Shown piece after piece: positions 2,289 to 61,122 of a DNA stretch of 64,000 nt (the stretch's first letter is position 1; each line of letters opens with the position of its first letter). The translations under genes and the position numbers were made by a program. The stretch is from Paracamarosporium sp. OC-R06-R3 (Eukaryota > Ascomycota > Dothideomycetes > Pleosporales > Didymosphaeriaceae), in assembly GCA_019828545.1 (NCBI GenBank), contig JACVRA010000109.1, positions 434,001 to 498,000 on the forward strand, written 5' to 3'. A model generated the notes under the pieces. That model was not told the DNA's origin. It worked only from the letters and a program-made list of their open reading frames with translations, and ran no database searches.

Positions 2289-2463
2289 GAACTCGCGGAA
2301 TCTGTTGTTAGAAGGACAAGCTTGAAGCTGACATTCTTTTTACCCCACGCTCTTTAGCACCTCGTCGCTCTTTTTGCTTTCAATTGTTCGTTTTAGGAAC
2401 TATCCATTCGCTTCGTCTGCTTCACTATTCTGAGCTTACACTCGTATCACTACACTAGCAAAA

Positions 2464-32919: not shown

Positions 32920-34321
<1,402 letters not shown>

Positions 34322-38300: not shown

Positions 38301-38760
38301 CTAATGCCGTCGCCCTTCCCAGCCATCGTATTTAATATTGACAGGATCAGGGTGATGAACTAATGATGGATCGTCCTTATCGTTGGTAGCGTAACCCAAG
38401 TTCCACTTCTCTTTCCAATCATCACTAGCTGGCGGCGACACCAGAGCCAGTCTCGGAATTGGTTTCTTGTCTATCCATTTGCAGGTTCTGCCTTCTTCAA
38501 AACTCACACTATCGTCTTCAACCCACTCCCAGTCAATACCTTCTCCTGCAGTATCCTCCTCGTCTGTCCACCACCAGTCACAATCACAACCGCAGTCATC
38601 TTCGCTTGCAACATTGATATTTTCCTTGCTACTGTCATCTGCAATCTGATTGTCAATCCCTTTTCCAATACTGGGTCTGTAGTCGTCATTACCAAGTTCA
38701 CTATGATCGTATCCATAATTCCAATAGTCATCCTCATCACCGCCTGCAAGACCATCGCCT
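38301..38760 (-). other. Acidic, tryptophan-rich C-terminal tail of the giant protein
   Basis: The last about 150 residues are unlike the rest: Asp/Glu-rich with many Trp and Tyr (DDYWNYGYDHSE, DCGCDCDWWWTDEED, DWEWVEDD). It ends with a Lys/Asp stretch and GWEGRRH. It contains a short C-x-C-x-C cluster. The function is unknown. The tail depends on the intron 2 model. Confidence 0.6.
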
Positions 38761-41700
38761 CCTTCACTCGGATCGTTCCAAAACCACCATGGCAGAAAAG
38801 CTATCGGTGTATATGCAGGAGCCTTGCGAACTTCAGGCCATGGTGTCGCATCTCCTGGTGTCGAAGTTAATGCTAGAATAGACTGTATCTTTGTATTCGT
38901 CCGCGGTCCAGATCGTACCGGATTGTCGTTATATCTTCCCGGGCCTTCGATTTTGTGCGAAAGGACAGAACTGTGGCTTGGAGGTCTTGTAGTTGGCTCT
39001 CTGGTACTTATTGGATGCAGCATCATTGTTAGCTGAGTCACTTTAGATGAGTGATTCTTGGTATTTGATGTGAGTGCATGAGTTGGCTGGTTTAGCTCTG
39101 CCTGGGGAGTGAGTGGGTTGAGCCCAGAGCGACCGGATGGATCGACGACTGAGCGTCGATTAGTGACCGAGCTAATTGAAATCTGGAGCCGTGATTAGCT
39201 TTGGATCGGTCCTTGTACGGAATGGCTTGGCCATACTACGCTACGCGCAGGGAACTGACTCGCACTTATTGTGGGAGAAAACGTGGATCGCGAAGAGCTC
39301 CTCAAACTGGACTGTGAACGAGTATGGGATAGATCCTCTCCACCCGCAACAGGCGTAACGCCTTCTACATTCAAAGGAGCAACAAGAGTTGGACGGAGGG
39401 GGTGTGAGGGCAGTAGTGGCGGAGATAAAACACTGCTGAAAGATCTTGCGGGCTTAGTATTGGCCCCGTCACCACTAAGTGTGTTGATCCTAGATATCTG
39501 GGAAGGGGTTATAGCGCTTGCTGGGGATTTAGTAAGCGATATCGAAGGATTGAGTGGCCGTGACGGGGTGCGAGCGACAGATTGTGTGGTGATGCTGTAG
39601 ATAATAGATCGTGTAGCTCTACTGGCGTCCTCGGGGTTGTTAAGAGTCTGAGGTGGAGAAATTCCATCATCATAGACGATTTCTGGACGGCTTGCCGTTC
39701 GCAGAGTATTGATGCTTGGGAACGCAGCACCTCCACCACCATCAGGGTCACGATCAAGACTTTCTGTCACCAAACTAAGGGATACAGCTGGGCCTATGGG
39801 TTGAATGGGTAAAGCGTGGATTGGTGTTGTGCTTGTTGGCGTATACGAGAATATAGGCTCTGGTGGCGTATACGAGAATGTAGGCTCTGGTGGCGTATCC
39901 GAGAATGCGGGCTCAGGTGGTTGGCTAGGTATTCCGATGGCTCCCCATGTCGATATTGCCAGCCAGCCGGTATGGGCCGGTCCAGGAGGTGTAATGTTAC
40001 CTGAAGCTAGCAATACATTTGTTCTGGTGAGAGCCAAATGTTGTCGGGTTGAGGAAATGGCCAACGGTTGTGGTGGGAGAACTGGACTACCGAGAACAGA
40101 GTTTGATCGACCGAAAGCAGCATCTTCAAAGCCGGAAGTAGAGCGGAAGACGCCCGGACCAGGTGCCGATATCGTTGTGTGGAATGTACCTACTACACGC
40201 AAAGACGTAAGACCGCCAGATGTGCGAGATACGATCGGCTGAAATGGTTCATGTAGAGGAGTTGCTATTTTCGATCTTGTCATAACTGCGTTGGCCTCTT
40301 CAGATGGAGTGAAACCGTTGACACGGACACCATATAGTTTGAATGGCAGGACTATGCTAACACTGCGCTGCTGTAGAATTTGGTGGTTTCTAGAAGTCGT
40401 CGGAGAAGCGGACAAGGCGCGCACAGAGCCACATAGGCCATATCCTGGATTGCATCCATGACCACAGTGGAATTTATTATTGCCGCTTATAAGATCATTA
40501 GAGTGTGCACTATAGGACGTTTCAAAGCCATGGAAGGATGTTAATATGCTTACCAAATGCCTCCAGCTCCGCAGCAGTCTCCAAAAGCACTGTTTCCGCA
40601 TGTATAGCCGAACGACATGCCACACGAACCGTTTGGAGATATCCGCTTCACGTTCGTTTGAATTGGTAGGACGAGGGTAGGCGCGGAAGGTTTGACTGCT
40701 TTTGTCGAAGCTGTACTGCGACGGTTGGGTATAAGTCCATCACTAGAAGATGCATATGGTACAGAAAATGCTGATGTTTCGGCTCGAGAGTCCTGTAAAA
40801 AGGATACTATACCAGGGTCTCGAAATGACGGATCGAGAGCGGCCAACGATGGAAGTGAATCATCGGGCGATGTGCTTGAAACTGGCGGCCTCATTGTCAA
40901 GGGTATCAATGACAACTTTGAGGGAGCAACAGTTTCGATAGTTGCAAAAGTTCCACCGCTTGCTGAAGGTAAATTTCGCGCGGAACTAACCGAAGCCCTC
41001 TTTGCCATTACACATAGCCCGCCTTGAGCCTGCGATGGACTGACTGCATTTTTCAGATTGCATGCGCCTATTACAGGATTATAAACAACAGCTGCACATA
41101 GTGACGTAGTCGTGCAGCGTCGAATGCATTGGGCGAAGGTGGTAAGTACTATGGTTCGGACGTCGCTGTACTCAAATTTCATGTCGCAGTCAGCTTCATA
41201 GAAAGTAGAGCTGTCGATGTAATTTTGGCCTAATATAACACCGCAGCAACTTTTTGGCGCGGATATGGGATTCGTGATACTAGTTCGCTCTTGTGCGCTT
41301 GGCCGAGTTTGTGAGATTGAAGGGGAGTTTGACGAGGATAGTAGCAAGCTGAGAACAGGTGCATGCGTAGACAGAATGTTTGCAGACTGCAATTCACCAC
41401 TTGTCAAGGAACTGGCGCCATCGAAGTTGGAGCTCTTGCCGTTTATGTTTAAATTGAATATTAGAGAATAAGTAGAGCTCTCAAGGTTTGGATTAACATT
41501 GCGAATGTCGGCATCAAAGCCACGAATGCCGATTAAGCTTGCGCTAAAAAGATTTCTAGATTTTGTTGGTTGAAGGGGCTGAGTACCAGGCTTGGAGGGA
41601 CCTACTGTACGGGTTGACAGCAGACTACTTTTAGAGTTTGCAGGTCGGTTGGATGTTCGTGGGGTGTTCAAAGGACCGCGAAGACCTTGGGGACCTAATG

Positions 41701-44700
41701 CTCCTGAGCCTAATTGAGTCGGCGAGTTCCGAATGAATACCGAAGAAGTTGAGCGGGCTTTTGTTGTCGCAATAAAGGGCGTCGATCGCAACCCATTTTT
41801 GCTTTGTAGGTTAACACGGGCCGTCGATAAGGTGGTGAGACGTTGTGACGGGGAACTGTCTGAGATACGTATGGCTGCACAGACACCGTTTACCGTAGCC
41901 ACGGCTGTTCCCGAGGACTTCTGTAAAGCACAGGCGCCTGTTCGCTCGTTCCAGCCAACTGCAACGCACGAAGTATTTCTTGAACATAAACTGACACACG
42001 CTGAGAGCGTCGCGCCGGTCATTGATGGTTGGTGGTTATCGATAAAGTCGCCGAGAGTCATCATGTTGCATGAAACTCGGAATTTGATGCTATGTTGGGC
42101 CAAAAGGCTAGTAAGAAGACCTCCATTACCCACAACACAACACTTCGAAGCACCTGAAGGATGAGGCAATGAACTCAGTACAGATGCGCGGCTTCCAGTA
42201 TACGGATGAGTGCTAGTTCTTGAAGTGGGCGAGCGGCCTAACGATGGCAGTGGCCGTTTGGTTGTGGAAAGAATTGCCTTCACCAATGGAGTGCTGGAGC
42301 GCCGTACTGTAGAGGACACACGTGTTACCGTAGATGGCCTCTTGGATGCCGGAGCAGCAGTGAATCGGCTGCTTAGTTTTAAAGCCGGCGAAGATATTCT
42401 CCTAATACTTGGTGTTTGAAGTGGGATAAGAGAGCCTTTCCTAGATGACGAAGAGACAGTGGGCCGGATATTGGCAATAGCGACGCTAGCAATCTTTTTC
42501 GTAGAAGATTGCGAAGATCGACGACTGGTGAGGGTGACGCTAGTGATTTTTCTCGTAGACGATTGAGAAAATCGACGAGTAGGGAGGGCGACAGTAGTGA
42601 ACTGACGTATCGTGATCGAGCTTGGTCTCAATACGATGGATGGGCCGGTTCGACTGGGAGATGTTATCCGGGACGAGGTTGAGATAGACTTGGCGCCACC
42701 ACTGCTTAAAGATGGACGATTAAATACACTACTTCCAAACACCTTAGAGGTAGCGGGGCCGTTACGAGTAGGCACTGTTGCGGGTAGAACTCCTCTATTC
42801 GACGAAGAAGCGGATCGGCTACTAGTGGCGGTAGGCAGGGCGAGAGCAGTCCTTTGAGATGTAATAAAGGGAGAAGCTGGCCGGACATTGGGAGTCGACC
42901 TCGTTTTTGTCTCACCGGCTACATCGAAGATGCCTAAAGATGGCCCCTCCTGTAGAGTACTAGTGATACGTATGGAAGGAGAAGTGCTTTTAGGACGGCA
43001 AGTAGGGCATGATCCTCCGAGCACATTCAGGGAGAGGTTAAGGTCAACAAGAGGAGGGGAAGAAGTAAAACCGCGACTAGCGACTGAGATAGCTGGAGGG
43101 CTTGATAACGGGCGGACAAGTGATGCTGGTGTAGATGTTGTCTTAGGGCGGCATGTTGAGCAAATTCCTCCGAGACCAAGCGAAATGTCGACATCAATGA
43201 GCGGAGGTGGCGAGGGCACCGCGCGAGTAGTAGACAAAGAAGCCCTGAGGCTTGATGTAGAAGAAGTAGGAAGTGGAGTAGGTTGTGGACGACAGGTCGA
43301 ACATAGTCCCCCTAATAAGTCTAAAGATAGCTTGACATCAACCAGTGGGGGCCTAGAAGACGTCACTTGAGTGGAAACCAATGTATTCAGGTTGGAAAGA
43401 GTACGAGGGGGTGATAGGGGCGTAGATGCTAAGACGAGAGACAGTGGATTAGGTATGACTGCAACGCCTGTTGGTGTGCTCGTAGGCCGACAGTTCGGAC
43501 TCTGACATGGACTTCCGAGCGCGCCAAGCGAAAGGCTCACATCAATGGGTGGCGGTGGCTTGACTTGAGAGGTAGCAAGCCCAGTCACGGACGCCGGGCA
43601 AAGTGGACCAGGGCATAGACCATCCAATATACCCAGAGAAAGGTTGACGTCGATGAATCCGGGTAATTTCGATGATACACCACCTGTGGGTCCAGCCAGG
43701 GTGCTGAAGATTGACAGAACATTTGGCGAAATGGTATGTGGTATCGGGAAGTCCGTTTGCAAAAAGCGGCTTGCGCTCGATAATTGACAGTCGAGGCCGT
43801 TGCATACGGGTAAATCTAGTGAGCTCAAAGGCGGACGTTCCGTGAGACTTGGACTGGCAGGAATGCGAGAAATGCTCGTCACACTTAGGGGGTTTACCGT
43901 CGTTGATGGTATGTTTGGAATTGGTAGATGACAGGAAGGTCCCAGGCAAAGTCCTTCGAGCAGTCCTAGAGACAAGTTGACATCGACAAGTGGAGGAACC
44001 TTGACAGTACTAAGCGTCGGAGTCTTGGTAACTGGGGAAGCTTGATCTAGCCCAATCAATGATAGTAGTGGAGTCAAATCTATCTGGGGTCTCAAGCTTG
44101 AAAGCGGTTGCGATAATGGCAAGGATTGTGGTAAAGTTTTGGTAGGCGTAATTTGGTTTCCTCCGAGTAATGACAATAATGGTCCAAAATCAATGATAGG
44201 TTGCAAAGTTGCTTCAGACAGCGTGGTCACTGCAAAACTAGGTAATGTCGACGATAGAGATGGCTGTATGCCTCCCCCAAGCAGAGAAACTAACGGTCCA
44301 AGATCAAGGATCGGCTTTGGCGTGACCAGGGAACTAATCACGTTCGTTCGCATTGCGGATGCTACACTCGAGCTTGTTCTCGTCAACAACAATGATCTAC
44401 ACGATGGCTCTTGGCAAAGACCACCGAGCAAGCCTGAGCTTGGATTAACATTGACGAGCAGTGAATTTGCTCCCAAAGCCAGTGTCGGATTCGAGCTGCC
44501 AAGAGATACGCCAGGAGTCGCTGTTCCTAATAAGCCAATGTCTAGAGTCTGGCATGATAGTCCTGAACAAGGTCTTAGCGAGCCCTGTCCCAGGTCTGCT
44601 CCTGTGAGTACGGGCTTTGATGTTGTTAGTGGATTGTTTCCCAACCCAATGGCCGAGATCAGCCCTTGTAAAATGTCGCCCTGAGCAGGAGATCCAGAAG

Positions 44701-47700
44701 AAGCCGGAAATACCGGCTCAGAATTTATCACATGGGTATTCAGCACCATCCCGCCTGTAACGGGAGCAATTGGCACACTTGGATTTAATGCTGAAAGTAG
44801 GGGTCCAAGAAGATCCCCACGTACAGACGTTGGCGTGATCGATCCAATATCCGAGCCCCCGGTCCTGATTCCGAAATTTGATAGCAGTTCTTCGACCAAA
44901 ATGGGTTTAAGAGTTGGAATAAGCAGAGTCGGAATAAGCAGAGGTGGAGTGACTGGATTCAGTCCACCAGTGATCGAGGGATTGAGGCCGCTGTTCACGG
45001 TAGATTGACCACATAAAGGTCCAGGACACAGCCCTACCGGCAAGCCTAAGCTCAAGCTAACATCTAAAAGGGGAGGGATTCCAGGAGGGTTACCGAAGAA
45101 ATCTGTCGGTGCGGGCCTGATGTCCCGCGTGGATGGAGTAGGAATAATCCCACTAATAATGGAAAGAAGTGGGTCGAGACTCATGAGTGGTCTAACTGAC
45201 GGAGTTGGTAGTGGAACAGCATTAGGAAGAGACGTCGACTGGTTCAGGTCAACCAAAGGTCGATTCGACAATGTCGGGGTCACCGTTGTGGCTCCCGGGC
45301 TGCCAAGAAGCGATAGTAGCGACTCAAGGTCTATAGGCGATCCTGTTGGCAGGGAGGACGAGATTACAAGTGTAGGCTGATCGACACCAATAGCAGATAG
45401 TAGGGGACTGAGATCTATGAGAGGACCTGTAGGCGCTACAGGCAGCGTTATAGATATGGGCAAACCGCCTCCAAGAATGGATAACAAGTTTTCAAGACCA
45501 GCAAGTGGTACTTGTAATCCCGTTGGCGTTGGTTCTGGAATATGGCCAGAGGAAACTTGTATTCCGCCGGGCTGCGACAATAGTGTGTTCAGGGTACCAG
45601 CTGGGGATTTTGATAAAGACACAATTGTAGGTAGAACTCCGTCAACGGTGGAAAGTGAGGGTCTCAAAGTGATCAACGATTGCGTCGTGGATATTTGCAA
45701 GCGTATTGATGTAGGCAGAACGCCACTAACGGTTGATGAGAAGAGATTGAGATCAATCAGTGGCATCGTCGGCAGAACCGGTACAGGTACAGATAAAGGA
45801 ATAGTACCACCAATCATGGAGAGTAGCGGATTTATATCAACCAGTCCACCCGTTGGTAACGTTAAAGATACTGGCGTAGGAAGTCCGGTGCCCATAGCAG
45901 ATGACAATGGGTTAGGATTGACAAGTGGCTCGATGACTGAAGTCGGCTGGGAGCCTACGCTCCCTGTAGTTTCAGCTTGCTCTCCGCTAACAAGCGGAAG
46001 CAACGAATTTAAGTTGACAGGCGGTACGGTTGAAGATGATTGTGTAGATCTAGATTGAGCGTTGAGAGCAGTCGTAGCTGGATTACCACCGGAAAGTGAA
46101 AGTAAAGGTTTGAGGTCAACAAATGCTCTGTCCGATGCGGTTGGCAATGCCAATATCTCAGATACAAGTGAAGGTTGATCGCCAAGGACTGAGATCACCA
46201 GATCAAGTTCGACAAGGGGATTATCCGATACGGTCGGTAACGCCAGTAGTTTCGCAATTAGTGAAATCTGACTCGGACCAAGGAGCGAAAGTAAGGGGTT
46301 TATATCGATGAGCGGCTTATTAATTGCAGTTGCGAGCGTTGGTAGACCAGTCGTGATCCAAGGTCGTTCACCTCCCGTTAACGAAGGTAGCCCATTTGAG
46401 TTACCCACCGGTTGACCAGAAGCGCTTGTCACAGTCTGTAACCCACTTTCAGCCGATAGCTGACCTCCTACTAACAAAGAAAGTACCGGATTGAGCAGTC
46501 CTACCGACGCTATCGGTAATACCAAGGAGCCAGGTAATTGTGAGACTGGACGGCCATCTAAAAGGGACAGCAACGGATTCAGATTGACGAGCGCTCCGAG
46601 TGAGTTTGTCGGTAAATTGCCAGAGCCTGGTGTAGAAGTTGGATGCACATTAGGAAGTAGGGAGTGCAATGAATCCAAATCGATCAGTGGTCCCACCGAA
46701 GCGGTTGACGAAAAACCGGAACCACCTTCAAGCCCAGGTGTGGGTGCCTTTCCAGATAACAAAGATATTAAGGGGTCGAAATTTCCTAATGAAATCACCG
46801 GGAATGTCGGCAATGGACCATTTAGCGATGATGTTGCAGGAGTGGGATTCGCTAATGGCGAACTTGGTAAGCTCCTGCTCGAGGCAGGTAGAATCGGGTT
46901 AAAGCCGAGCGAAGTCTGTACCAAGGATAGCGGTAAAGATTCGTCTATTGCGGATGATAACGGGTTAGCGTTGATCAGAGGTTCAATTAATGATATCGGC
47001 ACATGTCCACCTAGCAATGACAAGGCATGGTTCAAATCTATCGGAGGCTGTGAAAGAGAAGCAGGCAAGGCCACGCCTATAGCAGATAATAGTGGATTAA
47101 CATTTAACAGGGGCGGCAATAGCGAATTGGGTAGTCCCCCGGCTAGAATCGATAAGAACGGACTAAAATCGAGCGAAGGTCCACTGGGAAGGGCCACAGG
47201 TGGGGTGATGAAGGGATTTATTGGCGGCGAAGTTTGTGTTTTCGACGTGAGAATTGAAGATTGCCCACCAGCAAGAGCTGACAACAACATATCGAGGTCT
47301 AGAACTGGCTTCACGCTTGGTGGAAGTGGGCCTAGAGAAACGCGGGAGTCCGATAATGAACTTAGGTGCTCCACGGAGGATACAAGCTCGAGTTCCGGGA
47401 GCGACAACGCGGGGCTTATCAATGGCGGAACTGGAACCGTCAGCAAACCTGATGGTACTTTTACGTCCGAAGCACTCGAAAATGTGGGTGCGGTTACTGG
47501 GGATCCAAAAGATGGGACCTGCTCTCCGCCAAGCAATGATAGTAGGGGGTTAAGATCGAGGATTGGCTGGACACTCCCTGTCAGAGCTAGAGCTAGTGAT
47601 AAAGGAGCAGGAACTACATTGGTAACTTGGACGTTCGTAGCCGTTCGAGTAAAGCCTGGAATTTGACCGTCTCCAGGGAGATTGACATTGGACTCAGCAC

Positions 47701-50700
47701 TTGGGAGATTCGCGATGAACGAGGTTTTCAGAGTGCTCGAAGTGTCCGCACTCGACGACGGAAGCGATACGGGGAGGATGCTAAGTATGTTGGTCGGTTT
47801 GTTATCACTCGAAAGGATAGGCTGCGGCGAAATAATCAGTCCACTTGAGGGTGAGACAATCTGCTGAAACGCTTCGGACGCCGAACGGAGTATTGCTTCA
47901 GAGAAAGATCCATTAAAAGCATTTTGGCTGCCATCATCATCTGAGGCAGAGATACTGGACTCAGTGACTGGTTTCGAAGAACTAGCAAGTGTCGTCGTTG
48001 TGACCAAAAGCAAGGATAGAGCTGTCTTAGCCGACCCAGGTCCGAGTTCGAGACTCGAGAGCAGGTTGTCCACCACAGTGGGCACTTCGACACTTGAAGA
48101 TATGGTAGGCACAATTCCGCTCAGCGCTGAGATTATTTTAGGTGGTGGTACAATAGATCCAAGTCCAAGCGAAAGATAGTTAAGATCAAGCTGATTTGTT
48201 GTTAGGGCCGGGTTCGAGCTCAACGACACTGTAGGAGATACTAATCCAGGCAAACCACCAAGCCCAGAATGAGTTCCACCTAAAAAAGAGGCCACTGGGT
48301 TAGCGTTGAGACTGACAGAAGGTGCCAGAGGTTCCGATGTTCCTAGCAAAAAGGTTGATGATCCTATACCTAAGGGCTGAGAGCCTCTGAGAAGACTAGT
48401 TGGAGTAGGAGTTGACAAATTGACAGAATCTGTCGCCGTAATCGTGGGTTGAAGAGGTTGAACGATGAGCGCTGAAAGTAAACCACCAACTAGATCTACA
48501 CTGCGGGTCTGTGCTGGGAGAGGAATCCCAGTAAAGGAAGGTAACAGGTTGCCAACATTGGAAAGGAGCCCATTTAGCAGGCTGGGTGCATTGCTCGGGG
48601 GTGCAGAACCTAATCCAGACATGGTAGGTACAGGTACTAGACCTCCAATAGCAATACTCAACAAAAGATCACCCAGAATATTGGTCTTAGGACCCAAAGA
48701 TTCCATGGAAATCGGGGCTCCGCCAAGATGGCCAAGATTAGAAAGCAGATCTCCTATGATATTCTCTTGTACAGCCGAAGTCCTAGGAAGCGTTGGAACA
48801 CCAGTTATAGTGGAAGCTACATTACCCAAAACGTTCGGGACGTTGATAGGCGTCAGCAAGGTTGGAAGATTGACGAGGGACCGTAGACCAGACAACAGGC
48901 CTCCAGGGATCTTTTCTGAGTTTGCAGTGTTGATATCTACGCTTAGTCCAGAAGCCGAAGCACTAGGATTCGCACCACCTATGAGTGCACCCAGTAGACC
49001 GTCTATGAGATTGGCAGTGTTTGTGATTTTTGGCAAGCTCGAAAGTGAAACGCCAGTTGGGCCGTTTATAAGCCCTGAAAGGATACTACCAAGGACATCT
49101 GGTGGTATACTCGCCAAAGGCAACATTGGCGTCGTTGATGAAAAGTCGGTTACAGTCGTGAGAACACCCCCTGGAACGTTGCCGGCGCCACTGCTTTGTG
49201 GAAAACTCGGCACATAAGTGGAGATAGAAAATGCTCCGGGCGCTGAAGCGAGGTCTCCAAGAATGTTCGGTGGAAGAATCGTCAGACTCTGCACGCTTCC
49301 TATTGCGGAAACTAGGCCTTCTAAGATATTAGGTGGAAAGCTTGTTGGACCTGGTAAACTCCCAAGACTGGTTGGTATAGTTTCCACAACTTTTGGCACG
49401 AGGCTCGTTGGAGTCAGTAAACTCCCTAGAGCTGCGTTTAGACCATTCCCAATGCCAGGCAAGAGACTGGTCTGAATTGGTACACCGAATTCAATCGACA
49501 GACTTTCCAGAATATGAAGGGGAAGGCTTGTCGGAGCTGGTATATTTCCAAGCCCCGATAACAAATCTCCTATTACAGGTAATGGAATGCTCTTAGTACT
49601 AGGTATACCTCCCAGTTCAGACAATAGGCCACTAAAAACGATAGGTGGAAGGTTGATTGCAGTAGAAGGCAGTAAGCCTTGAACAGTTGGACCGAGTCCG
49701 CCCAGTCCAAGACCAGAGATTATATTTCCAAGCAAATCGGCATTCAATAAAGTTGTGAAATGTGTGGGAAAGGCAACAGAAGACCCCAGGAAGTGTGCTG
49801 TAGATGGTATGTTATTACCGATTCCGAATCCAGGTAGTAGGTTACCAAGTAGGTCGCTTATGCCAAGCCTGGGAGTAGATTCCAATAATGAAGTTAAACT
49901 CGGAGATGGTACCATGGGTGTAAGCAAAGGAGTGATACCTGGTATTCCAAGAGCTGTGAACAAACCTCCTAGGCCGAGACCTCCTAACAAACCAGTACCG
50001 GGGACTAATGTGCTAGCCAGCGGAGGCGATGGACTTGGTTGCGTGATAAGAGATGTGACAGGTGGAAGTCCGGGCACTGAACGGCATGACGGGCCTAAGC
50101 ATAACCCTTCTAGTAGACCCAGGCTTAAGTCAACGTTAATCAACGGCGCGGATTCTATTGCAGAGCAAGTAGGACATTGGCTTTCAAGTGAACCCAAGCT
50201 CAAAGTAGCATCTACGAAAGGTTGGATTGACTTCTTCGAGGTGACAAAGGTCGTAGGAGGCAGTGTCAGAGATGGTTTTCCAGTAGAGAGAATCGACTCT
50301 GGTTGGCACGCTGCGCCTGAGCATAGACCCTCAAGCAATCCCAAGGATAAGCCTACATCGTTGAGAAGATTACCTTGAGTTGCTGTGCGACATCCAGAAC
50401 CTAGACACAATCCCTCCAGTAGTCCCGGAAATAAATTAGCGCCGAGAGGCGGTATAGGCCTTGCCGTCGGTAATGTCTGTAACGTGTTAAGGGTAACCGG
50501 ATTCCCGAGCCCGATGCTAGATAGTGAAGCACCAAGTGAGTTTCCTGGCACCGCTGAGAAATCGTGTGTTGCTGACGCCGAAGACGTCGGAGTAAAAACC
50601 GGCGTACCGAGACCAGATTCTGAAACGAGACTGTTAATTGGCAAGATTGGTATTGATATGGGAATGTTGAAAACGGGAGGAAGGCCAGGCAAGGCAGGAC

Positions 50701-53700
50701 TAATCTCAGTTGTCGAAGGTAGTGGGAGAGCTAGTGTAGGTAGGGCCGGAACCCGAGGATGTGTCGCTTGCAAGAGCTGATCTACCCCAATCCCGGACAA
50801 TAAGCCTGCTAGGATATCTCCAGGGCCTAATAGTGAACCCGGCGTGCCTGTGGGAGGCGTAAATGATGGAAGTGACGGAAAAGACGATACAGGTATTGCG
50901 GGAAAACCTGGCAGCAGGTTACTCACAACGTTACCAACGATATTCGGCGCCAAGTCTGTAGGCAACGAAAAAGGCGCTAACGTCGGGGGAGCGACGCCTG
51001 CAAGCAAATCGGATATCAGATTACCAATCAGAGCAGTTGGGGCCCCGGCATTAGCAAGACCAGACACGAGACTACCAATTGGGTTGTCAACGACATTGTT
51101 ACTGGTCGTACTAGATTGGACTCCTGTTGCCTGACTAGGCCCTGGCCCTACATTTGAAAGCAGCTCGCTTACGATATCTGGACGCCCCGTTGAAGGCCTC
51201 AACGGAGTACTTGTTTGTGTTCCTCCAGAGGAGCTTTGATCGCCAAATCCTAAACCTTGTATGACCCCATCAACGAGTTGCTGCACAGGGTCTACAGTCC
51301 TGGTAACGCTAGGCGACTGAAGTCCTGTGGTCTTCACGGAGGCCGATGGCGTTACTGAGCGGCTGGAGAAGAGAGCACTGACAAGATCTCCAGGTAGGTT
51401 CGGTAGCAAAGCGGATGGCTGTAGCGCTGAAAGGGGTGAAATAGGAGGTAAACCGACTGGAACGCCAGATAGAAGATCCTCGACAAGATTCCCGATTTTT
51501 GATGTTGAAATAGAGGGTTGAGCGATAGGTGGAAGGGAAAACGTAGGAATCACTTCCCCTATACCTGATAAGAAGCCTCCAATGATTCCACCTACAAGAT
51601 CCCTAGTAACGCTTGGTAATGCAGGAAAGGAAATGGTTGGCGTTTTGCCTGGACCGAGATTCGAAAGGATATTCCCCACGAGATCATCGAGAAGGTTACT
51701 AGGTCGTGATAGAGCAGGTAGAGAAACTGAAGGAAACTCTGTCGGAAGGCTTGGCTTTAGGCCATCGAGAATGTCTCCCAGAAGGTTGCTAGAAATGACG
51801 TTAGGTAGTGAAGCAGGCGCTGACGGTGATATACCACCGAATCCCAAATCAGAAAGAAAACTGCCTAGAAGGTTTCCCGGTAGAGCTCTCGTGATGGAGG
51901 ATACTGGGAGCCCGGATTGTGCCACACCATTAGAGGAAAGAGGAGTTGCCGATGTAGCACTCAGATCAAGTCTTATGCCACCCACAAGACTTTCTAAGGC
52001 ATTGGCACTGGATACAGGGAGCGGCGAGGGTAGGATTGGGGTTTTGAGGCCAGAAATAAGATTACTCAAAAAGCCTTCCGCAACATTACCGGGTAATGCA
52101 GTAGGCAAGCTGAGGACAGGCAGCGTCAGACCGGAAAGTAGATTGCTGACAAAGACTTCTATCCCGGGAAGATTGGTGACGAGTGGAGGTATACCGGAAA
52201 CTGGATTCGCAAGGCCCGATCCCAGCCCATTAACGAGGTCGCCGATTAATTCTTCTGGTAATACACTTGATTGAGGTACTGTAATAGTCAAAGAAGGAGC
52301 CGTGGGTGAGTTAGAAAGTAACCCATTCACGAGACCATCCAGAATTCCAGGTATACTGATATTAGGTAGAGGATTAATGAGAGGCAGCTTTGAAGGTAAA
52401 ACTGAGTTCTCGAAGATGTTGCTAACAAGATTGTCGACAAGTCCAGGGTTCAACACACTGGGAGTCACCAGAGCCGTAGAGATAGCCAAACTTGAGAGCA
52501 GATCACCAACGCTACCCACTCTGCTCGCACTAGCAAGGGCGGGCATAACCGTAGGGTTTGAAAACGAGCTTGTTCTGAAAGCAGAAGGCGACACGTTAGG
52601 CAGTTCATCGACCAAGCCTGATTTAAAAGTGCTGGGAAGTAAATTGAGTGAGCTTCGAGTGGGAATACCTGCGAGTAAGTTGGACAACAACCCAGGCAAC
52701 AAAGCTGCCTCGGCGGAGGGAATGACTGTCAACTGAGGTGGTAAATTACCCGTGGGGAGAAAGATACCAGACGGTAGCTCTAGGCCCGATAGTATCCCAT
52801 TTACCAAGCCTTCAATTATTGCAGAACCTGTAGGAATGGGTGATGGACCCACGATAGATTGCGTAGGCAAGCCAAGCAAGAGGCCGGACAGAAGTCCAGA
52901 GAATACAACACCGACATCGAGAGCAGGCATTGAGGGTAATATAGGCAGTGAAGCACTAGGAGGAAACGGCAAAGACGACGGAGACTGCGCATCAGATAAC
53001 AGTCCTGACACAGGTATATCGGAGTTGATAATGCTTGAAAACGCGCCAGCAGAGGTAGATGGTGGTGGAGCTCCTTCTGTTGCATGGTTGGAGAGAATTC
53101 CATTGAGAACTCCTGGTAAAAGTGAAGGAGGTACCCCCGGTATATGACTCAAGATATCGTTCGGGAGTCCAATTCCTGAGGGCAGACCAATACCGGATAG
53201 CAGGTTTTTGATCAGATCATCTTGCACGCCAGAGAACGTGGTAGATGGTAGGTTTCCAGAGGTAACTGAGAACAACTGAGGTTGCGAGCCGAGTCCAAGA
53301 TTGGAGGCTAAGTTAGATAGTATATCTCCAAGAGGTCTAACATCCGTAGATCTCGGAAGTGATGCAGATGGCACACTAAGTGGCGTTGATTTTTCACCTA
53401 GTCCAGGACTGTTCAGAACCCCGTCTAGGAAACCTCCTGTTTGGATTGTGCCTGTACTTCCCGATCGGATTAGTCCAGAACCCACTAGAGCTGGTAGACC
53501 CGTGCCAAAATTCGAAGCCAAGTCATTTAGTAAATTATCCAGGATATTGGAGCGAATGTCGCTGGGAAAAGCATTGGTAATAGATTTGGCAGTAGCTGGG
53601 TTAGAAAGTATACCATCAATGACTCCATTCAGGATGTTTGGATTCGAGGTGGCCAACGGGAGATTAATACTGTTAGTTAGAGGAGGAACACCAAAAGCAA

Positions 53701-56700
53701 TAGTTCCTAAGCCTAAGAGCAAAGTCTCAACTATGTTAGGTGGCAGTGAAGTCGGAAAGGGAATGCTAGGTCTAAGTTCGCCAAGTCCAGATAATAGGTC
53801 AACAACGACATTTGCCGGAACAGACGTTGGTAGACCCGTTGCCAAGCCTGAAAGTAAATTCTCGACGACATTCGGTGGGAGGGACGTTGATAGATGGATA
53901 TCAGCCACAAGGCTACCCAATTCTGACAATAGGTCCACAGCCAGATTGGGCGGAGCAGACGTCGGTAGGGGAACGCCATTTAATAACCCTGAAAGTAGAC
54001 CTTGTATCAGCTTCGGATCCTGAAGTGATAATGGTGGCAACACAGAATGGATTGGCGTTGGGAGATTAGTTGCTAGTCCTGTAAGGCCAGAAAGCACACC
54101 TTGCGTGATTTCAGGCTGCGAAACCGTTGGCAGAGCACCGGGAAGATTTTGTGCAGAAGAAAAACCACTGAATACATCCCCAACGACATCGGACATTGTA
54201 GCTGTCGGTCTTGGTTCTTGTGGGTTTGACGCCAACGGAAGGCTTGTTTGGACAGCTAAGTCTGAGAGCAGGTCACCAACTATACCTCCCACGACATCAG
54301 ATAATGATTTCGTTGGGAGAAGGTTCGGTAGATTTAGCAAGGATGGGTTTAGTAGACCAGAAATAAGACCATTGACTAGGTTGCCGATGGGAAGAGATGG
54401 CAGTATTGTTGGAAAGGGATTTGATTCGTCCGGGACCGTAATCGAAAGGGCACTTGGATTATTCAAACTAGGGAAGAAATTGCTGACAAGACCACCAACT
54501 AAGTCTCCCGTAGGGTTAAATAGTAATGCTGTGGGCAGTAGATTCGGCACGCTTGGAACAGCAGCGGATGAGATAGCCGGGGTATTGGTACCAGTGGACA
54601 AGTCTCCGAGGTTGTTGCTCGCTGTATTAGAAACTGATAGGGTATGAAGCAATCCTAAAATGTTCGTCAAGGGCGAGACAACCGGGTTGATCACTCCAGA
54701 AAGGATTCCGCCAACAACACCTTCTAGGACATTCGGCACCGATAACGTGGGGATCAATCCAGGTACGTTCGTCGGAAGTGAGACAGCTGGATGCAAAATT
54801 CCAGAAACGAGTTCATTAACACCATTCGCCGCACTAGGCACCAATCCATTCAGTCCCGAGAGCACTCCACCCAAAAGATCTGGTGCGCCGATTGGCAATC
54901 CCGAAGTCTCATGCAAAACTGATGTCACTAACAGAGAATTGGGTTCTTCGGTAGCAAAACTTAAGCTTTGCGATATTTCGCTTCCGACATTAAGTATTGG
55001 TGCTGTTGGACGCAAAGACGGGATGTTCGTTACCGGCGGAAGAAGATTGGAGATCAGACCGCCAATAACCCCGTCCAAAAGATTCGCTATGGGAGCACTT
55101 GATACCGCAAGGGAAGCCGTAGGGGTTGTAACAACGCCAAGATCTCCCAAACTAGACAGCAAGTTGATAAGAGTACTGGATCGTATAGGCGCAGAAGCTA
55201 TTACTGAGAGTGTTGGTAGGGAGCTATGAGTATTTAGACTCGGTAGTAAGCCACCTAGTACTTCATCAAGGATATTTGGCAGGGAAGATGGCACTTGTGG
55301 TGAAGTTGGAGGTGTAGGAACGCCGCCAAGGCCTAAGCCCGAAAGCAGGCCAGCAACCAGATTAGGATCGCTGCCTACTGTTGGGTGCTGAAGCAAGGAA
55401 GACTGCGCACTTTTGGCTCCACCCGGAAGGAACGCTGAGAGCAAATCATCTAATAATACGGGAGGATTAGTCCCGGGGTTTGATGGCGGGGTTGGAAGAT
55501 TGGCAGAGGGCGCTGACGAAAGTAAACTGGGTGTAGGGCCAGACAATGTATGGAGATCCAGTGAAAGCAGTGGTAGAGGCGTTATCGGTAATAGAAGACT
55601 TAGAAGGTCGAGCAATGGAGGCTGGTTGCTAACCAGTGGCTTCGATGACAGAGACGAGCTTGGACTGCCGAGTGATGAAGCATCTGTCGAGGGTGTTTGA
55701 GGCTGTATGAGCGGCCCAGTTGGCAAAGCCAGGCCTAGAGCCTCCAGGGAAGGAAGCGATAGAAAAGACAGCTGCAAGGAAGGTAGGTGCAAGGAAGGCA
55801 GCTGCAAGGAGGGCAGCTGAACGAGCGGCGTAGTCGGCAAAGCCAAGCCTGGAACCTCTAAAGAAGGTAACTCAAGAGGAGGAAGTTGAACAAGCGGCGT
55901 ACTTGGTAAGGTTAGGTTTGGAACCACTAGGGAAGGTAGCTGGAGAGACGGTAGCTGCAAGGAGGAAAGCTGAATGAGTGGCGTAGTTGGCAAGGATAGG
56001 CCTGGAATCACCAGGGAAGGAAGCTCGAGAGGAGGTAGCTGAATGAGTGGCGTAGTCGGTAAAGCTAGACCAGGAATTACTAGTGAAGGAAGCTCTAAAG
56101 AAGGTAGCTGAATGAGTGGCGTAGTGGGCAAGGCTAGGCCAGGAATCACCAGGGAAGGCAGCTCGAGAGGAGGTAGCTGAACGAGCGGCGTGATTGGCAA
56201 GTCTAGGCTTGGAGCCCCTAAAGACGGAAGTTGTAGAGTAGCAGGCTGTTCTGAAGGAAACTGTTGTGAAGAAGGCCGCTGTGAAGGAAGCTGTTGTAAC
56301 GAATGCGTTAAAGAAGGCGGTTGGGCGAGTGATGTGGGAACCGGGACCCCAACGGGCGGAAACTGCAGTGAAGGCAGTTGTATGAGCGGGGTATTTGGCA
56401 AGTTCAAGCTTGGGATTTCTATAGATAGGAGCTGTAGAGAGGGAAGTTGAATATCGACCAACGGTGTAGTAGGTAGAGCCAGGCCTGGAACCACTATAGA
56501 CGGAAACTGAACGTTGATCAATGGTGTGGTGGGTAAAGCCAGGCTTAGTGCCTCTATAGACGGAAGTTGAATGTTGATGAGTGGTGTAGTAGGCAGAGCC
56601 AGGCTTGGAAGAACCAAGGTTGGAAGCTGCAGGGAGGGAAGCTGAACGTTGATCAGTGGTGTGGTGGGCAAAGCCAGGCCTGGTAACTCTATAGACGGAA

Positions 56701-59700
56701 GCTGAATGTTAATAAGTGGTGTAGGCAGAGCCAGGCTTGGAAGAACCAAGGTTGGAAGCTGTAGTGAGGGGAGCTGGACGTTGATGAGTGGTGTGGTAGG
56801 CAGAGCCAGGCTTGATACCTCGATAGACGGAAGCTGCAGGGAGGGAAGCTGAACTTCGATCAGTGGTGTGGTAGGCAAAGCCAAGCTAGGAACACCCAAG
56901 GATGGAAGCTGTAGTGAAGGAAGCTGAACGTTCACTAAGGGTGTTGTAGGTAGAGGTACACCTGGCAATTGCAGGCTTGGCAGCCCCAGCAAATCTCTGC
57001 TTGTCTCGGGGAGACCACTGTTCGATGCAAGTGTTGGTGTAGGGGCATTGAAAAGGTTTGAAAGTAGATCACCTAGGATATTCGGTGCACTAGGACCAAC
57101 AACGCTGGGTGGAAGCGAAGGCGATGTCAAAGTATTTAGTGAAGAGCCGATAACTGGAGGTGCTACAGATGACAAAGCAGGTAACGGGAGAGACAGCGGC
57201 GGCGAGGGAAGTCCAAGCCCAAGAGCAGACAAAAGTCCTCCCAGCACACCTCCACCTGCACTACTCGCTGGCAATACCACCGACGAGGGCGAAGTTTGTG
57301 GTGCCAGAATGGGTGTCGACAAAATTGCAGGTACAGAAGCACCCAACCCGAGGCCAAGGGCACTCAAGACCCCTGGTATGAGTCCCTGATTTGTAGGTGT
57401 CGGAAAGGGAGTAACGAGACTCGATGGGATGGTTGTAAAGGGCTGTTGCGTTATCCCTAATAAGGCGAGGATCTGTTCACGTGGAAGGTAAATTCCCAAA
57501 TCATACGACAAATAGGACAGCATCTGTTCGAGCTGATTCTCTTGGGGTGTTGTAAGACTAGGCGCTGGTGTAATCAAGGGTGATGAAATAGCGACAGAAG
57601 GGAGTGCTAAGGACGTCGAAAATCCAAGTAAACTTCCCAGAAGGTTTCCAAGCGCTGGAAAAAGCCCCAAAATATCGTTGGGCACCTGTGCTGATGCGGT
57701 GGGTAGTGAAACTGAGGGTGTAATTGGGTTGGCAGACACAATGCCTGAGGGCGAGCTTTGCTGTGCCAGAAAATTACCCAATGCAGATGCTAAGTCAAGT
57801 ATCGGGGGCTGTATATTGCTCGCAGCAGTAGGTGACAACGACGGGAGACCGGAAGGTAGGCCGAGTAAAGGCAGATTTGGAACAGAACTTCCTTGACTTA
57901 GTAGATTCTGAAGTGCAGATCCTAACCCGGGTAGCAGTGGTGGCAGGTTCGCTCCAAGCAGTGGTGATGGGACATTTGGGAGGAGTGATGATGCACTTGG
58001 AGACACTACTGGTATAAGTGTTGAAGGTCGTAGATCGGGAAGGGACGACGGAGCAGCTAGCAGGCTTTCAATACCGATGGTCAAGGCTGGCAAAATGCCT
58101 CCAACAGGATTTTTCGCGTCCGTTGCAGGGGTGGACAAAGTAACAGGTGAGTTGACCGAAGGAGTGGAAAGAGAATTCCCTGGAAGAGCTGACTGAAAAG
58201 TCAACACCGGAAGATTTGGAACGGAATTTGGAAGAGCTAGTAAACTGCCCAATCCTCCCGCATTCGACAAGAGACCTCCAATTGGGTTTTCCACACTACC
58301 TACCAACGTAGAAGGAGGTATTGGTAAGACCACAGACGGGACCGATAGAGAGAGCCCAGGAAGCCCAGGAAGCCCAGGAAAGGAGCTTGAGAAATCTAAC
58401 AGATTGCCTAACCCTCCTACTACACCTGAAAGGATAACATTAACCGGGTTCTGTCCACCAGGAGCTGCAGGGACAGAAGACAACCCAGCTGAAGGTGCAG
58501 CAGCCGAATTTTCGGGCAGAATCGACGAAGCACCGATTGGCGCTACGGGTGGGATCGCAAGAATTCCCCCTAGTCCTCCTGCTAATCCTGATACAATGTC
58601 ACCCAGCGGGTTCTGGACATTGCTTACAGCAGGAATAGAAGATGCTAGAATCGAAGAGACTGCAACCGAAGGTATTGCAATAGATGGTACTGCAATCGAC
58701 GATACCGCAATCGAGGGCACTACGAACGATAGTGCCGAAGGGGAATTCAACGAAATGCTTGGAAGAACGGGTGATACATCCAACGATGGGACTGTTGGGA
58801 CTGCAAGCAGACTGCCCAAACCCCCAACCACATTCGAGACCAGACCGTCGAGCGCATTGCTTAACGTCGGGGTTAAGGCCAGTGCAGGAATAGCCACGGA
58901 AGGTGTTGGCACGGCGAGCAGACTGCCCAAACCACCTACTACGTTCGAGACAACTTCCCCAAGCGGGTTCTGAACGCTACTTATTGCACCAAGTGATTGG
59001 GGCGAGCCGGAAACTGGAACTGATGAGAGTGACAGGGGTTGCACTAAAGGCGTTGGGGCGGCAAGGAGACTTCCCAAACCTCCAGCCACATTCGACAGCA
59101 CATTTTGTAGTGGATTTTGAATGCTGCTCACTGCCGAAGCCGTTTGAAGTGATGCTAAGTTCACCGAGAGCGTCGGGACCGCGACTAGACTGCCTAATCC
59201 TCCAACCACATTGGATACCAAGCCTCCGAGGGGGTTTTGAAGACTACCAACCGCCGGAATTGATAGAGCTGGAAGGGCCAAGGATGGTGCCAGAATTGTG
59301 AGTATACTTGCCAGCTCTCCAGCAACGTTCGAAACCACTCCCCCAAGAGGATTTTGAACGCTGCTTACCGCTAGAATCGAAGCAGGAGCAGGAATGTTTA
59401 CTGGAGGCGTCGGTACCGCTAGCAAGCTGTTCAAGCCTCCGGCTACTCCGGACACAATGCCACCCAGAGGATTGAGTAGGTTCTGAATGCTGCTCACGCT
59501 GGGAACTGAAGGTAAATTGGACGAAGGCGTCGGCACCGCCAACAAACTGGTCAAGCCTCCAGCTATGCTGCCTAGAGAGCCGAGAGAGATATGAACGCTG
59601 CCAACGCTCGGCACTAAAGACAAACTTGGTGAAGGCGTAGGTACCGCTAATATGCTGTTTAAGCCGCCAACCAGACCGCCAACCAGACCTTGAAGAGGAT

Positions 59701-60547
59701 TCTGGACACTAACAGCCGGCAATGTCGATGAAGGAAGTTGTAATTGTACCGATGATGGTAAAATCGTTTGAAGTGCAGGCGTAGAAACTCTGACCGATGA
59801 GCTTGGCCCAGCAAGCAAACTTTGAATATTCGAAACCAAGTTGGAGGGTAAGATCTGTGCACTACTGAACGCAGCGAGGGGAGTGGTCGGAAGAGCAGCC
59901 GGGGTCGATGCGCTCGGAGGAACCACGCTCAATCCTGGGAGAGCAATGATGCTCACGATCGCCGAAAGGAGATTGCCGGCGGCCAAAGACGAAGCGCTGC
60001 CAGCATTTGAAGGGACCGAAAGTGTAGGCAACCTTGTTGCCAGTGTGCTTGGCTGGGGACTGCTCACCACACCAATTGGTATTAAGGTGATAAGCCCGTT
60101 AGTCACACCGAGTAGCCCTCCCAGCGTACTTCCCACGCCGCCTACCACGTCTCCTACTACTCCCACGACTCCTTTCAACGAACATGAATTTAGGTTCTTG
60201 TCGAATGTAGCGCCTACGCAATATGGGTTCCCAATGCACGTATTGAGACACACGGTTAGGCTGGGCGTAACGCTCACGGTGAGGGCTGCCTGCAAAATGT
60301 TCGTGTTACAGATGACCTGGTAAAGGCGGCCTTGGCTATTGATGGTGGTGCCGTTCGTATAAGTCACGCCATTGCCGTCAGCGCAAGTTGAAACTTGGGG
60401 GGGTTGCCCTGTGAGTCCACCGAGAACCCCTCCCAATAATCCTTGTGGACGCGCAAGTGCTCCATTTGCGAAGACTATCCAGACAAGAACATGTCTGAGA
60501 CAAATATTCCAAGCTTGCTGCTTGGCTTGCATCCATGGATCGAACAT
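38301..60547 (-). CDS. Giant secreted repeat protein (about 7,374 aa) with PAN/Apple-like and chitin-binding type-1 modules
   Basis: Exon 1 is 60547-40554 (19,994 bp without an intron), exon 2 is 40485-39237 and exon 3 is 39182-38301; the introns are 68 and 54 bp. The N-terminus has a signal peptide (LRHVLVWIVFANGALA) and then a PAN/Apple-like six-Cys module (about 55-126). From about 130 to 6100 the protein is low-complexity Leu/Pro/Ser/Val/Gly repeat of several kinds (listed separately). Two further Cys-rich PAN-like modules lie at about 6134-6228 and 6429-6516, then a hevein-type chitin-binding domain at about 6635-6683 formed across intron 1. A Ser/Thr/Pro-rich stretch follows, with near-repeats of PEPTFSYTP. 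The end is an acidic, Trp-rich tail. Intron 1 is strongly supported because it completes the hevein Cys pattern. Intron 2 is less certain (donor gtatgg, acceptor ctccag after a gctaatcac branch-like site). I infer a huge cell-wall or surface protein. Function is unknown. Confidence 0.85.
40430..40645 (-). other. Hevein-type chitin-binding domain (ChtBD1) split by an intron
   Basis: The C-terminal end of exon 1 encodes GSCGMSFGYTC, SAFGDCCGAGGI and the exon 2 start encodes CGNNKFHCGHGCNPGYGLC. Joined, they give the full eight-Cys hevein pattern including the SAFGDCC core. ChtBD1 binds N-acetylglucosamine polymers, so this part should hold the protein on chitin. The intron 40553-40486 interrupts the domain. 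Confidence 0.85.
41000..41262 (-). other. Third PAN/Apple-like module of the giant protein
   Basis: Residues about 6429-6516: KSCCGVIL, YEADCDMKFEYSD, FAQCIRRCTTTSLCAAVVY, ACNLKN, then GGLCVMAKR. It shares an opening double Cys and a final xxGxC with the second module. Confidence 0.6.
41865..42148 (-). other. Second PAN/Apple-like module of the giant protein
   Basis: Residues about 6134-6228 open with SKCCVVG, then VSCNMM, LSACVSLCSRNTSCVAVGW and CALQ, closing with GVCAAIR. The Cys spacing resembles the third module at 41000-41262 but sequence identity looks low, so the pair is an old duplication. Confidence 0.6.
42980..45075 (-). repeat. Cys-paired LSLGLLEGLC motifs (C-x4-C and C-x2-C), first cluster
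   Basis: At least nine copies of a motif with Val/Ile-Asp-Val-x-Leu-Ser-Leu-Gly-Leu-Leu followed by a cysteine pair. The pair is of form CLGPSC (C-x4-C, e.g. near 43930-43990, 44390-44460 and 45010-45070) or CSTC/CPTC (C-x2-C, e.g. near 42990, 43150 and 43300). Four more copies lie at 50085-50440. Outside the PAN and hevein modules these pairs account for nearly all Cys of the protein. Confidence 0.75.
44130..47700 (-). repeat. LVDLNPLLSLLGG-type repeats
   Basis: More than twenty copies of a motif like LIDLNPLLSLLGG or LVNPNPLSSAMG, separated by 25-45 residues of Thr/Ser/Leu/Pro-rich spacer. Asp/Asn before the LLSLL core is highly conserved and gives the otherwise neutral region its few polar residues. 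Confidence 0.65.
47900..55400 (-). repeat. Long array of LLSGLG / NLPxLP-type degenerate repeats
   Basis: About 2,500 residues built from units of about 30-45 residues: a helix-like core such as NIVENLLSGLATGLP or GDLLSGLGLG, then a Pro/Ser/Thr spacer. The core often has two Leu pairs and Gly at fixed distance. DNA similarity between units is low. Charge is almost absent. Confidence 0.65.
50085..50440 (-). repeat. Second cluster of Cys-paired LSLGLLEGLC motifs
   Basis: Four consecutive units, for example VDLSLGLLEGLCLGPSC, VDATLSLGSLESQCPTC and VGLSLGLLEGLCSGAAC, about 75-115 bp apart, inside the LLSGLG region and about 5 kb (about 1,700 residues) from the main cluster. Confidence 0.7.
55730..56970 (-). 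repeat. 60/81-bp minisatellite encoding LPSLxLP / LALPTTPLI repeats
   Basis: A dense tandem array with a 60-bp basic unit (20 residues, e.g. SLALPTTPLI plus NVQLPSI) and longer units extended by extra 7-residue LPSLQLP blocks. The plus-strand signature (ggcaaagccaggc after gtggtgt) recurs many times from 55790 to 56960. Copies are far more similar at DNA level than the other repeats of this gene, so this block is young and is expected to vary in copy number between isolates. Confidence 0.85.
57800..59720 (-). repeat. Diverged repeats with a VQNPLG...VVGGLGSLLAVPTP theme
   Basis: Roughly eight to ten copies, about 150-190 bp apart, share a core like QNPLGGVVSNVVGGLGSLL followed by AVPTPS and a variable Ser/Leu/Ile-rich spacer. 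At DNA level the copies have drifted well apart, which indicates old duplications under protein-level constraint. The predicted structure is alternating short amphipathic helix and Pro-rich linker. Confidence 0.7.
60170..60385 (-). other. N-terminal PAN/Apple-like module of the giant protein
   Basis: Residues about 55-126 contain TCADG, a QVICNTNI segment, SLTVCLNTCIGNPYC and a final CSLK. The pattern and the closing C-x-LK are typical of PAN/Apple-like domains, which bind protein or carbohydrate. The module follows directly after the signal peptide. Confidence 0.6.
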
Positions 60548-61122
60548 GATGCGAAGGGATGGGCCGCGCGCCCTTAAAGGAAATAACTGCGAAAAAACGA
60601 TTGTTTAAGAATAGAGACCTTTAAATTAACCGTGTATAAAAAGGGGACGTGAACGAGCGATTGGTGCTGGAAAAGAGTGTATGCACAACAGCAGCGGATG
60701 CGAAAGATGGTGTTCACGGTTGGAGCACGGTGAGACTGAACGACCCAGGACTTTCACACATTGCCGACGCGTCGACGCGATGAAGTGAGCTAAAAGTACT
60801 GGAATGAGGGTTGGTGATTCTTGGCGAGAATGCGAAAACGGCCCCATGGAAGTCCAGGACCGTCTCTGGACAGACTGGAATAGCAGTGGAAAATCTAAAT
60901 CGACAGCATGAAGATGACTGCGCTTGGAAGTCAACGAATCCGTCAAGAAATACTTACGAAAAATCAGACTATATCTTCTGACATCGCCATGAAGTTCACC
61001 GCGCAATCAGTCTCGCTATCGCCCCCAGCAAGGGCAGACATGCCTTAAAAGTGGGAGAGTTGCCATACAGTGGGGACGGAGAAGTCGCCATGTGCGAATC
61101 ATTGGACCTTGTAGACAAATTC
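60548..61122. promoter_or_regulatory. Promoter region of the giant gene and 3' flank of the SDR gene
   Basis: 575 bp. On the minus strand a TATACA element about 90 bp upstream of the giant ATG (60641-60634) could be its TATA box. The same site reads TATAAAAAG on the plus strand, so orientation is ambiguous. No gene seen. Confidence 0.35.

Follow-up and report, generated by a model that had tools for sequence, protein, structure and literature searches.

The 352-amino-acid protein Ss-Sl2 of Sclerotinia sclerotiorum, which carries two PAN-like modules, is secreted, builds up on the walls of hyphae and helps to keep cells intact (PMC3338822), and CBEL-type proteins of oomycetes combine a CBM1 module with PAN/Apple modules (PMC3532174). 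Within the cell, perilipin 4 coats lipid droplets through an amphipathic helix of roughly 1000 residues (PMC6164224). Here we describe a gene of the ascomycete Paracamarosporium sp. OC-R06-R3 that invites comparison with all three. It lies on the minus strand of contig JACVRA010000109.1, in a stretch of 64,000 nucleotides (positions 434,001 to 498,000; hereafter the window), and, given both introns of our model, appears to encode a protein of about 7,374 residues and about 745 kDa, in which three PAN modules and a hevein-like module stand around a repeat-built core with many predicted amphipathic helices.

Ss-Sl2, an ascomycete protein that is secreted, belongs to the wall, bears PAN modules and contributes to hyphal integrity, is the closest of these systems in function, but it has 352 residues against about 7,374, its PAN modules are missed by Pfam, and the parts of the source considered here name neither a giant core nor a hevein module for it. 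CBEL-type proteins are closest in module pairing, with a non-catalytic carbohydrate module adjoining PAN modules; theirs is a CBM1 instead of a hevein module, they belong to oomycetes and not to fungi, and a giant helical core is not mentioned in the corresponding parts of that source. Perilipin 4 is closest in the principle of its core, sharing very long amphipathic helix repeats and the interface coating that we propose for the giant protein. It is, however, intracellular, with 33-residue repeats that are charged and free of large hydrophobic residues, whereas the giant protein is Leu-rich, nearly uncharged, broken by prolines and, by its look, secreted. Rep1 of Ustilago maydis (PMC7329392), an example of the repellents and Kex2-processed repeat proteins, is closest in its proposed surface role: it is likewise a secreted repeat protein, and a water-repellent surface is what we propose for the giant protein too; the giant core has no KR or RR between its repeats and so would not be cut into peptides there, and a repeat-peptide precursor of the KEP or Kex2 kind was rejected on this ground (no such site precedes residue 5991). 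QID74 of Trichoderma, with 13 tandem 59-residue repeats (PMC13170347), is also a repeat-built fungal wall protein; its repeats bind a chitinase, and PAN modules are not named for it in the parts of the source considered.

Two further loci of the same genome, L007 (G000:C213, about 455.4 kb) and L008 (G000:C159), hold open reading frames (ORFs) that combine hevein domains with a repeat core in a single protein and have an NPGFE-type stretch close to their end; the intron of the L007 hevein domain lies at the codon where that of the giant gene is also split. They differ in that their hevein domains keep the chitin-site serine and Trp23, that their open stretches span 416 and 570 codons in the DNA examined, and that no PAN module is among the matches listed for them.

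Coding evidence and the predicted helices of the core

Exon 1 forms a single open frame of 6,665 codons within a stop-to-stop frame at 60604..40553. Over the same length, stops number 358 and 233 in the remaining two sense frames and 89, 427 and 558 in those of the antisense strand. None of 50 first-order Markov sequences of equal length and the same dinucleotide make-up stayed open for more than 312 codons. Internal DNA repeat pairs, picked on DNA similarity alone (at least 45 bases, at most one pair per offset), were in all 34 cases offset by a multiple of three, which keeps the frame, and in the 28 pairs counted the mismatch at codon positions 1, 2 and 3 was 25%, 11% and 42%, highest at the third. 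Pairs chosen by protein similarity gave a proportion of synonymous differences (pS) of 0.71 against 0.34 for nonsynonymous ones (pN; 111 of 188 pairs), a choice that itself pushes pN down and leaves the DNA-chosen pairs as the cleaner test. Repeat phase and codon-position bias fit protein-coding repeats under selection, unlike a satellite, and, to the extent that sequence can tell, the giant gene is real. An earlier note on this DNA had read the locus as one giant gene and had named non-coding satellite repeats as the finding that would count against it; the long frame, the frame-keeping pairs and two downstream exons open beyond chance (Table 1) uphold that reading, and the codon-position test speaks against a satellite. 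It is highly improbable that the locus is a non-coding satellite or a decaying pseudogene left open by chance: such an origin would agree with the lack of homologues in our searches and with a case built on sequence and not on transcripts, and it is opposed by the stop-free length, by the abundance of stops in the other frames, by the codon-position bias within repeats and by an intron site common to other hevein genes.

The core (residues 141-5860, 5,720 residues) is rich in Leu, Ser, Pro and Gly, 6% charged and hydrophobic overall, with a grand average of hydropathy (GRAVY) of +0.51. It falls into five zones, a to e (Table 1), of which zone b consists of the pentapeptide-like units LPSLx and VIPGLALPTTPL. 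The only cysteines between residues 122 and 6136 form 14 C-x2-C or C-x4-C pairs, located at 3381-3488 and 5174-5850, so that none occurs from residue 122 to 3381. A Pfam scan of residues 141-6130, the whole core plus the basic linker that follows it, found no family at E 0.1; with no hydrophobin among the end-region matches either, the protein does not qualify as a hydrophobin.

Cutting the core at prolines leaves 140 segments of at least 12 residues, which we compared with shuffles made within each segment. The helical moment at 100 degrees was 0.235 against 0.173 after shuffling (z about 9), hydrophobic residues recurred at i,i+4 (416 against 260, z 14) and avoided i,i+2 (172 against 300), and small-xxx-small pairs at i,i+4 were likewise in excess (329 against 246, z 8). 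In subsets of less related segments (n=43 and n=57) the moment z was 4.7 and 4.8; in the off-frame controls, which like the neighbouring proteins considered below were restricted to segments of 12-30 residues, it was -1.4 and 1.5, and the signal was absent. The signal comes from zone a, with 25 segments, and zone c, with 80, where the moment z was 8.3 and hydrophobic pairs at i,i+4 numbered 261 against 150 after shuffling; zones d (15) and e (20) are without it, and zone b has no qualifying segment. AlphaFold2, run without an alignment, modelled residues 283-720 of zone a as eight helices, each 13-23 residues long and joined by coil, at a mean predicted local distance difference test (pLDDT) score of 37.6; for residues 1187-1610 of zone b it gave short strands, also at low confidence (mean pLDDT 44.7). 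Judged by these periodicities, most proline-free core stretches, typically 12-20 residues long, are predicted amphipathic helices with small-xxx-small spacing, set between proline-rich linkers. The Leu/Pro/Ser core of the earlier note is thus indeed built of repeats, but the role of a neutral spacer does not agree with its hydropathy or with the amphipathic beads of zones a and c. There is more to it than such repeats: 105 strongly amphipathic candidate helical beads in two of the five zones, an LPSL array and the cysteine pairs.

Because the core is hydrophobic and bears amphipathic beads in zones a and c, we suggest an interface-active or self-associating coat more than an adhesin stalk. Our tentative proposal, which we put forward as quite possible, is that a single gene supplies a wall coat that is active at interfaces, coheres with itself and is held in place by its PAN modules. 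After secretion, the core helices would lie on, or pair across, interfaces between hydrophobic matter and water (wall and air, lipid, melanin or other chains), and each molecule, bearing about a hundred weak "stickers", would act as a film-forming polymer, surfactant-like and self-cohesive. The C-x2/4-C pairs may lock chains together through disulfides, and the PAN modules at both ends may bind wall glycoproteins or glycans and so hold the film, with the coat acting beside the class II hydrophobin of the genome. A bolder version, in which a secreted, PAN-capped, giant "beads-on-a-string" polymer of amphipathic helices forms an extracellular interface coat as the counterpart of perilipin 4 and makes a surface independent of hydrophobins, is in our judgment doubtful; in the comparison with coats of the PLIN4 type, what the core has is periodicity in its sequence only. 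If expressed intact, the product would be a secreted fungal protein of very large size and a naturally occurring surface polymer whose composition had no named relative in the searches made, and it would make testable whether fungi form surface films from giant amphipathic-helix chains besides small hydrophobins.

Several observations weigh against such a coat. The z values are inflated, since the repeats are related to one another, and three ordinary neighbouring proteins gave moment z values of 1.7, -1.5 and 2.2, so that a weak helical moment by itself is not special. No helix signal is seen in zones b, d and e, which together make up 2,000 of the 5,720 residues of the core, and models at the pLDDT values given above offer hints and do not establish a fold. 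The repeat core of L007 is equally hydrophobic (GRAVY +0.61), and hydrophobicity alone is hence not unusual among the repeat proteins of this genome. A class II hydrophobin is present (G000:C104:231905-232147; L037, L038), so that no giant coat is required to make up for a missing hydrophobin; a search of the genome for class I hydrophobins found no match, but the control genomes were also silent, and absence is thus not established. Finally, what the sequence itself displays is a maintained frame, three PAN modules, a periodicity of helical type and a hevein site that has degenerated; secretion, assembly, disulfide linking and the coat function are inferred.

The same core could instead belong to a matrix protein of elastic or fibrous character, comparable to silk or elastin, in which Pro/Gly/Leu repeats and cysteine pairs make a cross-linked network between hyphae and no interfacial film. 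The pentapeptide-like zone b, with its lags of 5 and 23, and the 14 CxxC/CxxxxC pairs would suit such a network, as would the report that in Ss-Sl2-silenced strains interwoven hyphae failed to consolidate into sclerotia (PMC3338822). We regard this alternative as rather unlikely, given that the largest zones are amphipathic helix beads and not elastomeric repeats, and that other cross-link residues are few (5 Tyr and 2% Lys+Arg in 5,720 residues).

Splicing, modular ends and the hevein-like module

Seven GT..AG pairs are available at the end of exon 1, and with three of them (68, 44 and 146 nt) the frame stays open through exon 2. The 68-nt intron (GTAAGC...TATAAG) joins CGMSFGYTCGNSAFGDCCGAGGI to CGNNKFHCGHGCNPGYGLC and yields canonical hevein spacing. 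Its AAG acceptor is of the less usual kind. The 44-nt form has the same donor and a TAG acceptor at 40510; it keeps the eight cysteines, inserts eight residues between the fifth and the sixth, lengthens the protein by as many and leaves Gly/Gly/Ile at the chitin site unaffected, and its hevein module had no Pfam match at E 0.1. We prefer the 68-nt form because the hevein domains of L007 and L022, in the same genome, are split at the same position, between Gly-X and Cys-Gly, and we take the 44-nt form as a less likely alternative. L007 and L022 are two of 19 hevein first-half matches in the genome, 11 others of which continue without an intron; the scan required a C/T-AG acceptor, which places the giant gene's own AAG junction outside its reach. 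Two more candidates were rejected: a 146-nt intron, with which the frame is open yet most of the hevein module is lost, and a 109-nt intron, which is followed by 23 stops.

Intron 2 is the weakest point of the gene model. It was chosen among 26 GT..AG pairs able to remove the lone in-frame TAA after exon 2, as the one that yields the 7,374 residues of the earlier note, and its branch site is plausible by eye. Were the TAA genuine, the protein would stop after 7,094 residues and the acidic tail would be absent.

The end modules agree well with what the earlier note had described, namely a secreted protein with modular ends around a repeat core, PAN1 at one end and PAN2, PAN3 and a hevein motif at the other. 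The N-terminal hydrophobic stretch, ending ...FANGALA before RPQ, looks by hydropathy like a signal peptide and supports secretion. All three PAN modules exceed the PF00024 cut-off of 21.4 bits (24.8-27.5 bits), have the paired central cysteines of the PAN/Apple family and share the pattern C-x3-C-x5-C-x11-C. The acidic Trp-rich tail is likewise present provided that exon 3 is correct; it has no Pfam match, and a genome search gave no second copy. The modelled C-terminus, ...IKYDGWEGRRH, which depends on exon 3 and the inferred intron, is by eye unlike a hydrophobic glycosylphosphatidylinositol signal.

The basic linker between core and PAN2 brings the first dibasic sites of the protein: KR or RR is absent from residues 1-5990, occurs six times in 5991-6097 and six times further on. 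This distribution would suit a Kex2-cut precursor, in which cleavage at the linker frees the core from the PAN-PAN-hevein-acidic part and leaves two products. Dibasic pairs are, however, to be expected in an Arg-rich linker anyway, and we consider such processing improbable.

As the earlier note had proposed, the hevein motif is completed only by splicing: with the 68-nt intron, and only with it, the eight cysteines take the canonical spacing, identical to that of the L007 domain. The spliced module scores 11.6 bits against a PF00187 cut-off of 27.8 and matched nothing among solved structures at E <= 0.1. Hevein holds its sugar with Ser19, Trp21, Trp23 and Tyr30 (PMC6908686), and the giant protein has Gly, Gly, Ile and His in their places. 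Among 14 other complete hevein domains, extracted from examined loci of the same genome, Ser19 is kept in 14, an aromatic residue (Trp/Tyr) at position 23 in 13, Trp/Tyr at 21 in seven, and Tyr/His at 30 in all 14. Because the serine and aromatic contacts are replaced while these other domains largely keep them, canonical chitin binding by the module is unlikely. It may be a structural relic or a binder of something other than chitin. That a hevein-type module can apparently lack its sugar site also cautions against inferring "chitin-binding" from a cysteine pattern alone.

The "chitin-anchored" part of the earlier note is therefore not supported. Read as an adhesin, such a molecule would have its hevein end on wall chitin, the core as a long stalk and the PAN modules as the binding face. 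The PAN modules, the L007-like cysteine spacing and the modular ends around repeats are consistent with that picture, and L007 and L008 show that hevein-plus-repeat proteins exist in this genome, but the replaced Ser19, Trp21 and Trp23, the PF00187 score and a core that is hydrophobic and beaded, and no hydrophilic Ser/Thr stalk, make it unlikely. A surface-coating polymer appears more likely than a chitin-anchored stalk.

Searches for relatives and neighbouring genes

Giant homologues were sought through the PAN2-PAN3 region and relatives of the ends through a composite of PAN1, PAN2-PAN3-hevein and tail, both against 5.8 billion proteins. None of the 847 candidates scored in the first search (about 3,670-11,660 residues) reached E <= 0.001, and none of the 7,994 scored in the second (about 460-1,470 residues) reached E <= 0.01; lengths of about 1,470-3,670 and below 460 residues were left out, and a module of 45-90 residues can hardly reach significance against so many sequences, so that the null is weak for single modules. 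As a control, the protein encoded at 18616-20814 (minus strand; 733 residues, without a Pfam match) gave 18 matches, the best at 54% identity to metagenome proteins and three named ones at 31-35%, all from Pleosporales; relatives of the fungus are therefore present in the searched database. No second copy was found in the 43-Mb assembly, which was searched with four stretches of the core as well as with the N-terminus, the tail and the C-terminal modules. Apart from the gene itself, the queries matched three hevein sequences, the best of them at E 4.3e-5; the N-terminus had two matches at E about 0.4-0.5, and a single match at E 0.014 was broken and of low complexity. Publications that link PAN modules to chitin binding, hevein domains, adhesins, giant proteins or cell walls, and those on amphipathic helices and walls, showed no such architecture among the matches listed, as far as titles and the starts of abstracts go, which is not proof of absence. 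Within the limited sensitivity of these protein and literature searches, the earlier view that no named family covers the whole architecture still holds. The module-by-module sequence searches that it had called for placed the PAN modules in PF00024, left the hevein-like module below the PF00187 cut-off and gave the core no Pfam family; the structure searches proposed with them are represented by the hevein module and its negative result.

Table 1. Predicted features of the giant gene and its product, in window coordinates
Feature	Position	Strand	Description	Evidence
Exon 1	40554..60547	-	19,994 nt, residues 1-6664 plus two bases	ORF listing, translation
Putative signal peptide, residues 1-32	60452..60547	-		Hydropathy, ALA/RP site
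PAN1, Cys 55-122	60182..60385	-		PF00024 24.9 and 27.5 bits, cut-off 21.4
Core zone a, residues 141-1180 (1,040)	57008..60127	-	~40-residue repeats, 25 proline-free helical beads	Autocorrelation lag 40, helix moment z 6.8
Core zone b, residues 1181-1620	55688..57007	-	LPSLx / LPTTPL array, lags 5 and 23	Autocorrelation
Core zone c, residues 1621-4300 (2,680)	47648..55687	-	80 proline-free amphipathic beads, e.g. NLLSGLG; four Cys pairs at 3381-3488	
Core zone d, residues 4301-5150	45098..47647	-	PLIDLNPLLSLLGG-type units, without helix signal	
Core zone e, residues 5151-5860	42968..45097	-	VDVNLSLGLLEGLCxGPxC units; ten of 14 Cys pairs	
Basic Ser/Arg/Thr linker, residues 5861-6130	42158..42967	-	Isoelectric point 12	First KR/RR sites of the protein
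PAN2, Cys 6136-6223	41879..42142	-		PF00024 25.7 and PF08277 22.5 bits, both above cut-off; PF14295 20.9, below
PAN3, Cys 6434-6512	41012..41248	-		PF00024 24.8 bits, above cut-off; PF14295 20.3, below
Hevein-like (ChtBD1-like) module, residues 6642-6683	40431..40624	-	Split by intron 1, degenerate chitin site	8 Cys; PF00187 11.6 bits; contacts G/G/I/H
Intron 1	40486..40553	-	68 nt, preferred to 44-nt form with same donor	Canonical hevein spacing; same position in L007, L022
Exon 2	39237..40485	-	1,249 nt	Open frame 416 codons, equalled in 0/1000 Markov sequences
Intron 2, inferred	39183..39236	-	54 nt	Takes out lone in-frame TAA; 1 of 26 possible GT..AG pairs
Exon 3	38301..39182	-	882 nt including stop	Open frame 293 codons, equalled in 0/1000 Markov sequences
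Acidic Trp-rich tail, residues 7201-7374	38304..38825	-	42 D/E, 15 K/R, 13 W	

Among the other genes of the window, a HET-domain ORF at 6361-7149 on the minus strand fits a filamentous ascomycete. A short ORF adjoining the giant gene (35963-36298, plus strand) has a signal-like stretch and a Ser/Thr-rich body, and the end of the giant gene is separated by about 4 kb from a GH18 chitinase-type ORF (33084-34181, plus strand; PF00704, 264 bits).

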